Of a DNA stretch of 64,000 nt, positions 49,467 to 52,110 are shown in pieces; positions within the stretch are counted from its first letter, which is position 1, and the number at the start of each line of letters is the position of its first letter. The stretch lies in NCBI GenBank assembly GCA_902406105.1, contig CABPCP010000001.1:1-64000 (forward strand). Reading direction: 5' to 3'. The DNA comes from an uncultured Mordavella sp. Lineage in GTDB: Bacteria; Bacillota; Clostridia; Lachnospirales; Lachnospiraceae. A program made the translations under genes and the position numbers. Under the pieces are notes generated by a model. That model searched no databases. It was not told where the DNA came from and saw only the letters and a program-made list of their open reading frames with translations.

Positions 49467-49499
49467 TAAAAAACAAGCATTTCAAAAAGGAGGATGAAA

Positions 49500-49835
49500 A
49501 TGGCGGTTGATAAAAGTTTGATCTCAGGAAGTACGTCTATGCTGATCCTAAAACTTCTTGAAGAAAAAGATATGTATGGATATGAAATGATCGAGACGCT
49601 CCGGGATAAATCCCGGAATGTATTTGAGCTGAAGGCCGGGACTTTGTACCCCCTGCTCCATGGGATGGAATCCAAAGGATATGTAGAATCTTATGAGCAG
49701 GATGTCCTGGGGAAAACCAGGAAATATTACCGGCTGACCAAGGAGGGAAAGCGTTATCTAAAAACGAAGAAAGAGGAATGGGAAGAGTATTCCAAGGCAG
49801 TCGCGGGTGTTCTTGGAGGTGTATGTTATGGATAG
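49500..49835 (+). CDS. PadR-family transcriptional regulator
   Basis: This 111-residue protein is a PadR winged helix (SGSTSMLILKLLEEKDMYGY, then LKAGTLYPLLHGMESKGYVE and KTRKYYRLTKEGKRYL) with a short C-terminal dimerisation helix. Small PadR-s2 regulators repress nearby transporter or envelope genes. AAAGGAGG is 7 bases before the ATG at 49500 and too close to the ATG at 49494. Its stop overlaps the next start by 8 bp, so it co-regulates the HAAS-SEDS gene. Confidence 0.92.
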   Translation: MAVDKSLISGSTSMLILKLLEEKDMYGYEMIETLRDKSRNVFELKAGTLYPLLHGMESKGYVESYEQDVLGKTRKYYRLTKEGKRYLKTKKEEWEEYSKAVAGVLGGVCYG

Positions 49836-51171
49836 GAAGGAATATCTGGATACCCTGGCTGAGCAGATACGGTCAAAGCCGGCGGCCGCGGCTGTGCAGC
49901 GGGAGATCGAGGATCACATTGAAGAACAAAAGGAAGCTTTCCTAGCCCAGGGAATGTCAGGATCAGAGGCGGAGGAGGCGGCCGTCCAGGAGATGGGAGA
50001 TCCAGTGGAGACAGGCGTGGCCATGGATCTGATACACCGGCCCCAGATGCCTTGGGGAAGCATTGCCCTGATCGCTTTTTTGAGCGTGGCGGGAATGGCG
50101 TTTCGTTTTCTCCTTGCGGCAAAACTGCCGGATGTAATCTTTATGACTGGGGATGTGACCACTCAGGGGATCTACCTGTGCCTGGGACTGGCCCTGATGA
50201 TCGGGATCTGCCTGGCGGATTACAGCAGGATCGGAAGGAGAGCCAGAACATGGACCCTCGTACTGGCGCTGGCCCTCTTGGCGGGAAACACATTTACAGG
50301 CGTAGTGGTCAATGGGATGAGCGGGTACCTGTACTTTATGGGGTATGTGGTCAGTATAAGTCTGATCTGGCCGCTGTTTGCCCCATTGTATGGCGGAATC
50401 GTGTATCATTACCAGAAGAAAGGATATCTGGGATTGGGGATGTGCCTGCTTTGGACACTCCCTGGAGTGATAGCGGCTGCAAGCTGTTCCGGCCCAGGGG
50501 CGGCGCTGCTGCTGCTGATCATTGACCTGGTGATTCTTGGTATCGCGGTGTGGAAGAAATGGTTCCCTGCGGCAAGAAAAAAAGTGCTGTTCGGATTAGG
50601 GTGCGCGGTGATCCTGCTGCCGGCCCTGAGCGCGGGGATCACGCTGCTGTTTGGAAACGAGTATCAGAAAGTAAGGCTTGCCGCACTGTTCGGCAGGGTT
50701 GACCAGGGAGGAAACTGGGCGCGCCAGACCCTCCAAGATATCCTTGGCAGCAGTAAGCTTATTGGGGCAAGCCAGCAGATGTTGGATCAGGAAGAAGCAT
50801 TTTCGGCAGCAGACTTTGTGCTTACCTATATTACAGGATATTATGGGATCCTGGCGGCGCTGGTACTGATCGGGCTGATCCTGTATCTGGTGTTCCGTCT
50901 GTTCCGGGTATCTCTGCAGCAGAAGAACCGGCTGGGAATGTTGATGGGCGCGGGAAGCGCCGTGGTCATGACAGCGCAGGTGCTGATCTATGTGCTGTGC
51001 AATATGGGGATCATTCTTCCAGGAACGATCTACTGTCCCTTCCTTACCGGCGGCGGAACGGTGATGCTGGTCACCTATGTGATCTTTGGAATACTGCTGT
51101 CAGTCTACCGGTATCAGGATATCCCCTTGGAGGAAGGGGAAAGAGCGCGGCGGCTCTCCCTTGACAAATAA
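49828..51171 (+). CDS. HAAS-domain/SEDS (FtsW/RodA-like) fusion protein
   Basis: This 447-residue protein begins with a cytosolic HAAS domain (about 1-60; IEDHIEEQKEAFLAQGMSGS, then EEAAVQEMGDP), usually found on proteins controlled by PadR regulators. About ten membrane helices follow. The last part matches the SEDS C-terminal signature: AADFVLTYITGYYG (D329, equivalent to the SEDS catalytic aspartate in TDFIF), and PFLTGGGTVMLVTYVIFGIL. SEDS proteins polymerise glycan strands of peptidoglycan. The EELG part of the catalytic loop is changed to TGYYG, so activity is not certain. GGAGGTG precedes the ATG at 49828. Confidence 0.8.
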   Translation: MDRKEYLDTLAEQIRSKPAAAAVQREIEDHIEEQKEAFLAQGMSGSEAEEAAVQEMGDPVETGVAMDLIHRPQMPWGSIALIAFLSVAGMAFRFLLAAKLPDVIFMTGDVTTQGIYLCLGLALMIGICLADYSRIGRRARTWTLVLALALLAGNTFTGVVVNGMSGYLYFMGYVVSISLIWPLFAPLYGGIVYHYQKKGYLGLGMCLLWTLPGVIAAASCSGPGAALLLLIIDLVILGIAVWKKWFPAARKKVLFGLGCAVILLPALSAGITLLFGNEYQKVRLAALFGRVDQGGNWARQTLQDILGSSKLIGASQQMLDQEEAFSAADFVLTYITGYYGILAALVLIGLILYLVFRLFRVSLQQKNRLGMLMGAGSAVVMTAQVLIYVLCNMGIILPGTIYCPFLTGGGTVMLVTYVIFGILLSVYRYQDIPLEEGERARRLSLDK

Positions 51172-51242: not shown

Positions 51243-51592
51243 GGGCTTGTACTGGTTTCGACGGGGGTCTGGAAGTTGGGGAAGCCATCCGTAGCGGGAC
51301 ACTACGTTAAAAGTTCCACTTAAATATAAACGCAGACGATAGACAGTTAGCGTACGCTGCCTAATTTTGGCAGTAGTCGGCCTTAGGTCATCCGCTGCTT
51401 AAGTCACCGGCTTCAAAAAAGGCGGAGCACTTCACCTCCAAAGCTTTGAGGAGATGGAAGAACTTATGAAGCTACTGAAGTCAGAAGCCTGTCATTAGGC
51501 GTCTGGCCAAGGGAATGTCAAAATAATGACTGTGATGGGAGATGCCCTGGTGGATGGGCTTTCGGACGCGGGTTCGATTCCCGCCAGGTCCA
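51243..51592 (+). ncRNA. ssrA: tmRNA (transfer-messenger RNA)
   Basis: The 5' end GGGCTTGTACTGGTTTCGAC and the 3' end GGTTCGATTCCCGCCAGGTCC-A form the tRNA-like domain: acceptor GGGCTTG with CAGGTCC (G-U pairs allowed), T arm GCGGG-TTCGATT-CCCGC, discriminator A; CCA is not encoded. The 350-nt middle part carries the tag frame and pseudoknots. tmRNA rescues stalled ribosomes and marks their products for proteolysis, including by ClpXP. Confidence 0.96.
51332..51364 (+). other. tmRNA proteolysis-tag reading frame
   Basis: The tag frame reads ADDRQLAYAA followed by TAA (51362-51364), if the resume codon is GCA at 51332; AAC directly before it could add Asn. It ends in AYAA, close to the LAA-type C-terminus recognised by ClpX. 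Confidence 0.8.
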
Positions 51593-51613
51593 CTTGACCG
51601 CGAAGTGACGAAC

Positions 51614-51695
51614 CCCGCATATGCCATGGGATATGCGGGAGGCGCTTTGACTGAGGTGAACAGAAATAAGGACAGCTTACGCTGTCCTTATTTTA
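51614..51695 (+). terminator. Two hairpins terminating tmRNA
   Basis: CCCGCATAT (51614-51622) pairs with ATATGCGGG (51631-51639). AATAAGGACAGC (51665-51676) pairs with GCTGTCCTTATT (51681-51692), followed by TTA. The second hairpin is a classic terminator. Confidence 0.85.
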
Positions 51696-51771
51696 CTATG
51701 GGGCATGGCTCTGTTGAGTTTATGAAATATTAACCACCTGTTATGCTGGGGGCGCGGCGCTGCCGGGACGG

Positions 51772-51799
51772 TTGACATTCTAGGAGCATTTGCTATAAT
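51772..51799 (+). promoter_or_regulatory. Promoter of the antitoxin RNA
   Basis: Perfect TTGACA (51772-51777), 16 bp, perfect TATAAT (51794-51799). No protein start follows, so it drives a small RNA. Confidence 0.8.
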
Positions 51800-51805
51800 A
51801 TACTT

Positions 51806-51911
51806 AACAAGACAGCCGATACGATAGAGCAAACCTATCCGTTTCCGGCAAAGTTATCAGTAACTAGAAATAGCACCTCAAAAGCTTGGCCAGAGCTGGG
51901 GTGCTATTTTC
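51806..51911 (+). ncRNA. Putative antisense RNA antitoxin of a type I toxin-antitoxin locus
   Basis: Transcription from the strong promoter would begin near 51806 and stop at the terminator at 51868-51911, giving about 105 nt with no protein frame. The 3' 44 nt are antisense to the end of the toxin gene on the other strand. A second region, CCGTTTCCGGCAAAG (51839-51853), is complementary with small gaps to the toxin mRNA's SD region (minus strand 52008-51996, CTTGCGGAAGGGG). Known relatives (RatA, SR4, SR5, Fst RNAII) act the same way by blocking translation or promoting decay. This RNA is predicted, not shown. Confidence 0.7.
51868..51911. terminator. Bidirectional terminator shared by toxin and antitoxin transcripts
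   Basis: AAATAGCACC (51868-51877) pairs with GGTGCTATTT (51900-51909) with an inner AGCT/AGCT stem. T-rich sequence follows on the plus strand. On the minus strand the toxin stop codon (51906-51904) lies inside the stem, as in Fst- and TxpA-type loci. Confidence 0.8.
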
Positions 51912-51987
51912 TATGGGTATAATTCAGAATTGCTACAATTAAGAGACCAACGGTCAGTATAATCATGAACTCTTCATATGTACTCAT
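51904..51987 (-). CDS. BsrE/TxpA-like 27-residue type I toxin
   Basis: This 27-residue frame begins MSTYEEFMIILTVGLLIVAI and ends LNYTHRK: a short polar start, one membrane helix and a basic tail. That is the pattern of the BsrE/BsrG/TxpA/YonT toxins (BsrE starts MSTFQALMLML). Such peptides insert into the membrane and disturb it. GGGGTGG is 7-8 bases before the ATG, which fits the strong SD of this family. It converges on the antitoxin RNA transcribed from the other strand, and the two share a terminator. It is far below usual gene-calling length, so it is easily missed. Confidence 0.8.
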   Translation of the reverse strand: MSTYEEFMIILTVGLLIVAILNYTHRK

Positions 51988-52110
51988 ATCAACCACCCCT
52001 TCCGCAAGACTCGGAAACGGCGGTATGCACCCTATCGGCTGTCCGGGTAAATATATTGTTGCTGTATGCCCCGGTGGCCTGGTATTGACGCACCGGGCGG
52101 TTTTTATTTG

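Follow-up and report, generated by a model that had tools for sequence, protein, structure and literature searches.

A probable type I toxin-antitoxin locus of Lachnospiraceae with co-varying pairing sites between the antitoxin leader and the toxin mRNA

The par locus of pAD1 (Fst-RNAII) and its chromosomal relatives have convergent promoters, a shared 3' terminator hairpin and a Shine-Dalgarno (SD) sequence placed in a 5' stem-loop, and repeats read in opposite senses provide them with a second zone of complementarity (PMC7472228, PMC4147584). The pairs txpA-RatA, bsrG-SR4 and bsrE-SR5 of Bacillus subtilis combine a small membrane peptide with antisense pairing, SD sequestration and loop contacts; Gram-negative bacteria process long inactive mRNAs, while Bacillus uses SD sequestration (PMC6562991). 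In hok/Sok and aapA/IsoA, a long-distance interaction between the 5' and 3' ends keeps the full-length toxin mRNA inert (PMC6733600). According to the accessible text of PMC6563280, experimentally validated systems of Clostridia are restricted to Clostridioides difficile. Its modules (CD2517.1-RCd8 and others) are convergent, occur several per genome and have mostly cognate-specific antitoxins, and their toxins of 34-59 aa were reported to lack homology to known type I toxins. It also refers to TxpA/Fst-like sequences that were predicted for C. bolteae and C. asparagiforme. On a plasmid of C. acetobutylicum a holin-like toxin gene was found through its transcription start, and the accessible text reports no antitoxin for it (PMC9045289). 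A survey of small membrane proteins includes holin-like toxins (PMC10903887). The type I toxins named in the accessible text on Clostridium clostridioforme prophages are only SymE-like (PMC11318856).

The window analyzed here is a stretch of 64,000 nucleotides from an uncultured Mordavella sp. It contains a small locus which is, very probably, a complete type I toxin-antitoxin locus operating by the mechanism proposed below; its toxicity, its transcripts and a long form of the toxin mRNA are deduced from sequence. By blastn the locus was found in 11 of 61 genomes. A pattern of the antitoxin leader, allowing at most two mismatches, was present in 85 of 397 genomes of the family, and control columns with the pattern read backwards contained zeros. 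This recurrence, set against the zero controls, indicates that the locus is not due to chance. The family, which we take to be Lachnospiraceae for the genome nearest to the window, holds Blautia, Lachnospira, Frisingicoccus and Fusicatenibacter. Of 106 genomes drawn from the whole order, three had the pattern: two among 10 members of the family and one among 96 from outside it. A scan of genome contigs gave at least 119 stretches carrying the pattern. Among the 80 matches listed, most came from Lachnospiraceae or its genera, several had no closer label than bacterium, Clostridiales, Eubacteriales or Clostridia, and a single one was labelled Mailhella.

Our collection comprises 182 distinct copies in which the ORF starts like a toxin: 136 are of the MSTYEE type and 46 of the MVTYSD or another type. 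Of these copies, 111 lie on named genome contigs, 70 come from other genomes and one from a viral contig. Where the records carry names, nearly all of these are Lachnospiraceae. The sample was picked by the antitoxin leader pattern, in which one position (site N) was left free and its neighbours were limited, and leader matches without a toxin-like start were left out. Eight loci could not be parsed, and the remaining 174 were used for site counts, folds, the tree and accessibility. The set for column covariation started from 154 stretches, some of which were the toxin side of an already counted locus. An ORF candidate was present in 140, a score and motif filter was passed by 129, and 119 were distinct; one locus with a misplaced -10 was removed and one further repeat merged, leaving 117. 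A scan of IMG/VR gave 8 contigs, one of which counts among the 182 loci once identical copies are merged, and the plasmid and phage records searched contained no match to the locus. Rfam returned no family for it, either at the gathering threshold or at a permissive E-value. We found no description of the locus family in the open-licence PMC papers searched. In four loci (L020, L030, L037 and L054) the antitoxin part was recognisable and the filter gave no toxin-like ORF; these are possibly decayed or solitary antitoxins.

The minus strand of the window carries the ORF given in the preliminary description, at 51987-51904, with start codon ATG, stop codon TAG and a product of 27 aa (MSTYEEFMIILTVGLLIVAILNYTHRK). 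The peptide has a single hydrophobic span and a C-terminal Lys, and its last codons are the complement of the antitoxin U-tract. In 139 of the 182 loci the toxin ends with Lys-Lys. For codon analysis we used 89 relatives of 27 aa, chosen by an M-x-T-Y-E start; E6 and K27 were present in all of them (89/89). Entropies of the three codon positions (codons 2-22) were 0.64, 0.34 and 1.24. Among codons with a single difference in 3,916 sequence pairs, 22,686 changes were synonymous and 7,766 nonsynonymous (74%, against 24% expected from random changes). When the selection motif was excluded (codons 7-22), there were 18,306 synonymous changes and 7,766 others (70% against 26% expected). By this codon pattern, the toxin ORF is a real gene under purifying selection. 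Across the loci collected from related genomes both the reading frame and the asymmetry of the promoters are conserved, the former being partly built in, as the 182 loci were picked by a recognisable toxin start. A short hydrophobic toxin ORF under selection, one of the features by which type I toxin-antitoxin systems are recognised, was thus found.

The only Pfam match of the window peptide was Hol_Tox (PF16935; 21.4 bits, E 2.2e-4), just under the curated cut-off of 23.3. One of three relatives scored 23.7, another 15.2, and the third gave no match. The likeness to TxpA and BsrE that had been suggested for the peptide found no support in the family models: Pfam gave Hol_Tox only, below its cut-off, and NCBIfam nothing above cut-off. 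The family models of TxpA, BsrG and BsrE gave no match (Rfam gathering threshold, NCBIfam cut-off), which sets the toxin apart as far as family models go; the Rfam BsrG model reached 15.1 bits on the locus, against a gathering score of 55. The Pfam score below cut-off, together with the deduced character of the toxicity, leaves some room for a non-toxic regulatory or signalling peptide whose level is tuned by the antisense RNA. We consider this improbable, since the Hol_Tox match, the single hydrophobic span and the Lys C-terminus, as well as the convergent antisense gene, the hidden SD and the strong antitoxin and weak toxin promoters described below, form the usual signature of type I systems.

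The antitoxin promoter on the plus strand consists of TTGACA (-35, 51772-51777) and TATAAT (-10, 51794-51799), separated by 16 nt and with TG ahead of the -10. It matches the consensus at 12 of 12 positions over 51772-51799, as the claim of a perfect promoter required. In a region of 1.3 kb we counted 4 promoter-like sites, compared with a mean of 2.8 (sd 1.9) in shuffled sequences, and only the one described here scored 12/12. Therefore the mere presence of a promoter proves little, and small ORFs, like promoter-like matches, are frequent. This abundance is what speaks for a chance meeting of ORF, promoter and hairpin, a reading to which we give almost no probability: the frame is under selection and compensatory changes are seen in the collected loci, and this conservation refutes it. 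Of 180 loci, 163 had an antitoxin -35 that agreed with the consensus at five or more of its six positions, and in 132 the spacing was 17 nt. The toxin promoter was placed by homology with other loci; its -10 region lies at 52048-52060 on the minus strand, with the hexamer AACAAT and without a -35. At this position TATAAT was the commonest hexamer (61/173 loci), and AATAAT or CATAAT occurred in 55/173. A toxin -35 with at least five matches was seen in 2/173 loci, which is the chance level (random 2.8%). The contrast between a strong antitoxin promoter and a weak toxin promoter fits an excess of antitoxin over toxin.

The predicted antitoxin RNA has approximately 109 nt (51806-51914, plus strand), its ends being derived from the -10 and the terminator. 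A 5' hairpin is predicted at 51815-51849; three of its column pairs (51824-51838, 51826-51836 and 51827-51835) co-vary and are 98-99% paired. The terminator, a hairpin with a U-tract at 51867-51914, lies over the 3' end of the toxin gene, and sequence and fold agree with the preliminary description in placing the toxin stop codon within it. The idea that both genes share a bidirectional terminator was borne out only in part. At least five T in the 9 nt past the shared stem were present in 166 of 182 loci on the antitoxin strand and in 62 of 182 on the toxin strand, so the terminator is mainly that of the antitoxin. By a laxer, fold-based rule the shared hairpin was called in 181 loci on the antitoxin strand and 159 on the toxin strand (182 loci), and so it may stop many toxin transcripts. 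A rule that demanded an ungapped stem was abandoned, as it called the shared hairpin in just 8 of 182 loci. In these conserved sequence features we recognise an overlapping antisense gene with its own promoter and terminator, another feature of type I systems, the RNA itself being predicted.

The SD of the toxin (AAGGGGTGG, 51993-52001, minus strand) is strong, as had been claimed, but in the predicted fold it is paired within a hairpin at 51992-52024, with an unpaired probability near 0 except at one bulged base. The loop of this hairpin is AGUCUUG (52011-52005). In 80% of the 174 parsed loci the SD had a predicted unpaired probability below 0.3. Complementarity of the antitoxin to the SD region, proposed earlier, is borne out when it is read as a contact with the loop of the SD hairpin. 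The antitoxin carries near its 5' end CAAGAC (51808-51813, plus strand; predicted unpaired probability 0.73-0.99), and the complementary loop bases are GUCUUG (52005-52010, minus strand; 0.92-1.0). We compared the pairing of true partners with that of shuffled partners in the 182 loci. The contact score was 12.41 for true partners and 10.48 for shuffled ones (z = 16, 0/1000 shuffles), and each toxin class taken by itself also showed covariation (z = 13.3 and 6.2). No contact signal came from three control windows, which were tried in the 136 loci of the MSTYEE type (z = 1.0, 0.5 and -2.0). A second batch of 66 loci, which is not phylogenetically independent, includes 12 loci from the genome-contig scan and contains one locus (L018) repeating a first-batch locus at a shifted coordinate, gave z = 7.9 (0/1000 shuffles). 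Within it z was 6.2 for 36 MSTYEE loci and weaker, 3.4, for the 30 others (1/1000 shuffles). The column pair 51812-52009 was within the top 90 covarying pairs (z = 8.6).

Copies residing in one genome could be compared directly. In 36 pairs the own partner was better in 15, tied in 19 and worse in 2; counted by genome (14 genomes with multiple copies), there were 8 better, 5 equal and 1 worse. Predicted accessibility agreed with the contact. In the 174 loci the contact site was unpaired with a probability of 0.75, compared with 0.41 for windows of the same size placed at random; for nucleotides 3-8 of the antitoxin the value was 0.80. The predicted duplex of the antitoxin 5' half had an energy of -35.3 kcal/mol with its own leader and -32.4 kcal/mol with a swapped one, and in 123 of 174 loci the own duplex was stronger than the median of the swapped ones. 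As a plain count, a YUNR loop motif occurred at 104 of 174 contact sites. Base pairing between antitoxin and toxin mRNA, also characteristic of type I systems, was in this way found by comparison, through the covariation of the contact and the advantage of own over swapped duplexes. These results suggest that the antitoxin 5' end pairs with the exposed loop of the SD hairpin.

A second pairing concerns an inverted repeat that covers both leaders. The repeat GACAGCCGATA was correctly placed at 51811-51821 in the preliminary description, but its inverted copy lies at 52033-52043 and not at 52032-52042. In our delimitation the left arm, in the antitoxin leader, covers 51810-51821 (AGACAGCCGATA, plus strand) and the right arm, in the toxin leader, 52033-52044 (GGACAGCCGATA, minus strand). 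Both transcripts are predicted to start with this stretch, which both carry, as had been noted, and no part of the locus co-varies more strongly. In the set of 117 loci with 278 columns, the top covarying pair was site N (51813 with 52041; z = 17), which ranked above the pairs of the antitoxin's own hairpin; some high-ranking column pairs fall in the ORF and match no RNA structure. No third partner for site N within the locus was present among the top 90 column pairs. Site N was a Watson-Crick pair in 156 of 174 loci and a mismatch in 4; in the other 14 it was a G-U pair when read on the toxin strand, and in no locus was it one when read on the antitoxin strand. The second batch (64 loci) gave 61 Watson-Crick pairs, 1 mismatch, 2 G-U pairs of the toxin strand and 0 of the antitoxin strand, and its pairing was matched by 0 of 2000 shuffles. 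Site +6 was a Watson-Crick pair in 172/174 loci. On a tree built from the sequence without leaders, double changes from one Watson-Crick pair to another made up 18 of 35 changes at N and 11 of 12 at +6, and all 9 changes into G-U at N gave it on the toxin strand. At site +3 the sense of G-U is opposite by cells (12 against 7) and even by tree events (7 against 7). The loop contact confounds the strand bias at sites -1 and -3, and the search pattern does so at +4.

An explanation at another level is that the locus is of type I and its inverted repeat acts as DNA, either as a shared operator or as ends for recombination or transposition. Both arms are located at promoter starts, which agrees with this. 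Neither a constraint on DNA nor gene conversion predicts, however, that G-U at the free site N should be confined to the toxin strand, and the occurrence of all four bases at N is odd for a protein site. We regard action at the DNA level as possible but rather unlikely. Pairing of the two arms as RNA points to the toxin strand. A helix between leader and tail was predicted in 172/174 minimum free energy folds of a long toxin-strand RNA, and a helix between the leader ends on the opposite strand in 150/174 folds, calculated with a leader window 2 nt longer. Given the sense of G-U at N and these fold counts, a long plus-strand RNA was disfavoured as the cause of the inverted repeat. Only an RNA of the toxin strand that spans the antitoxin leader could form the leader helix, from which we infer a long toxin mRNA; in it the right arm would pair with the complement of 51810-51821. 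A terminator of the toxin strand beyond the antitoxin was not enriched (26/176, compared with 76/400 random stretches), and on the toxin strand only 84/174 loci had at least five T in the 10 nt that follow the antitoxin hairpin. Neither result marks a 3' end for a long mRNA, and the missing enrichment is a point in favour of action at the DNA level. Provided that the system is of type I, we lean towards closure of the long mRNA between its 5' and 3' ends.

We also examined the surroundings of the copies. The window and another genome (G322) share a unit at 51765-52074, 92.6% identical over 312 aligned columns, and blastn (E up to 1e-3) of 11 kb of the window against 8 kb of G322 gave no match outside it. 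The statement of dissimilar surroundings rests on blastn; tblastx gave 25 matches over three loci. A tmRNA gene (51243-51595) lies directly upstream of the locus in the window, and ARAGORN detected no tmRNA in the surroundings of G322. Near-identical cores without shared flanks were also seen in L064/L070 (99.5%) and L025/L101 (99.0%) over 205 nt, with matches extending, relative to the antitoxin -10, from -24 to 292 and from -107 to 325, respectively; the flank table, swollen by tandem arrays and self-overlaps, was used just for such cores. The borders of the units are often just outside both promoters. In Blautia (G031 and G501) the flanks are 93-100% identical (steps of 60 bases, approximately 450 bp on each side) and the interior between the promoter boxes 55-70%; according to the alignment, the interior is replaced between conserved promoter boxes, and the block carries its own matching loop and leader. 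Near-identical units in dissimilar surroundings, borders just outside promoters and the replaced Blautia interior would all suit a repeat acting at the DNA level. Three genus searches for clean empty sites gave the one Blautia site with replaced interior and no precise empty site.

Fifteen neighbours on the same strand were separated by 295-423 bp (median 332), which shows that copies are also arranged in tandem. Such arrays, with two or three units each, occur at L046:5150-5539(+), L099:5579-6179(+), L124(-) and L005(-), and those of L046 and L099 mix both toxin classes. Just upstream of a Blautia copy, the stretch L029:4111-4150 recurs in several places of other Blautia genomes, mostly with 83-88% identity over approximately 40 bases, and is by this recurrence a dispersed repeat. 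Around the window locus, a palindromic hairpin between A- and T-runs at 51664-51697 (AAATAAGGACAGC...GCTGTCCTTATTTTA) is likely a two-way terminator between tmRNA and locus. A terminator-like hairpin of the plus strand (52077-52105) lies just outside the toxin promoter, with no obvious preceding plus-strand gene apart from the antitoxin. At 49494-51171 there are a PadR regulator and then a protein of 454 aa, whose N-terminus matches HAAS at a score just under the cut-off and whose membrane region is FtsW/RodA/SpoVE-like.

The type I architecture that had been proposed for the locus is supported by the selection on the toxin ORF, the unequal promoters, the hairpins and the covariation of the pairing sites. 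In the mechanism we propose, the minus strand would encode a membrane peptide of 27 aa, translated from an mRNA of a weak promoter whose SD is hidden in a 5' hairpin, and the plus strand an antitoxin RNA that a consensus promoter makes abundant. The 5' end of this RNA, being single-stranded, would dock first onto the loop of the SD hairpin. Pairing may then spread between the antitoxin 5' half and the toxin leader, and along the fully complementary, overlapping 3' ends. The duplex would block translation and would probably be exposed to RNase III. In toxin transcripts that read through the shared hairpin, the 3' end would contain a stretch complementary to the antitoxin leader; it could close on the 5' leader of the same transcript and give an inert full-length mRNA. 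More tentatively, and with slightly less than even confidence, we suggest that the locus is a mobile micro-cassette of approximately 300 bp, whole cassettes being exchanged between promoter boxes. Its co-evolving leader would be both a recognition code and a template for self-locking of the toxin: in the antitoxin it would read the loop of the SD hairpin, and the copy in the toxin mRNA would lock the 5' to the 3' end.

In this way common gut bacteria (Lachnospiraceae) gain a large and apparently unnamed family of type I toxin-antitoxin RNAs. Its pairing code is short and readable, some genomes carry several copies, and one swap has occurred naturally; with such ready-made variants the specificity of antitoxins and self-inhibition of toxin mRNA become testable.

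Among Gram-positive type I systems, the layout of the locus is, by our comparison, closest to that of par/Fst. Both have convergent promoters, a 3' overlap, a hidden SD and a second complementary zone. Fst toxins carry PxxxG(C) (PMC7472228), whereas the window toxin is Hol_Tox-like and has no P or C. The locus further differs in that the stop codon is inside the terminator, and in an additional inverted repeat over both leaders. The direct repeats of Fst/par have a short counterpart here, CAAGAC at 51808-51813 and 52005-52010; of this repeat of approximately 6 nt, one copy falls at the 5' end of the antitoxin and the other in the SD-hairpin loop. The txpA and bsrG pairs interact through their 3' ends (PMC6562991), while here the antitoxin 5' end and the SD loop form a co-varying contact. 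The proposed closure of a long toxin mRNA resembles hok/Sok and aapA/IsoA, which are Gram-negative, but here the 3' end would pair through a stretch complementary to the leader of the antitoxin itself. For the C. difficile modules the accessible text describes no leader repeat (PMC6563280), and the window locus has one.
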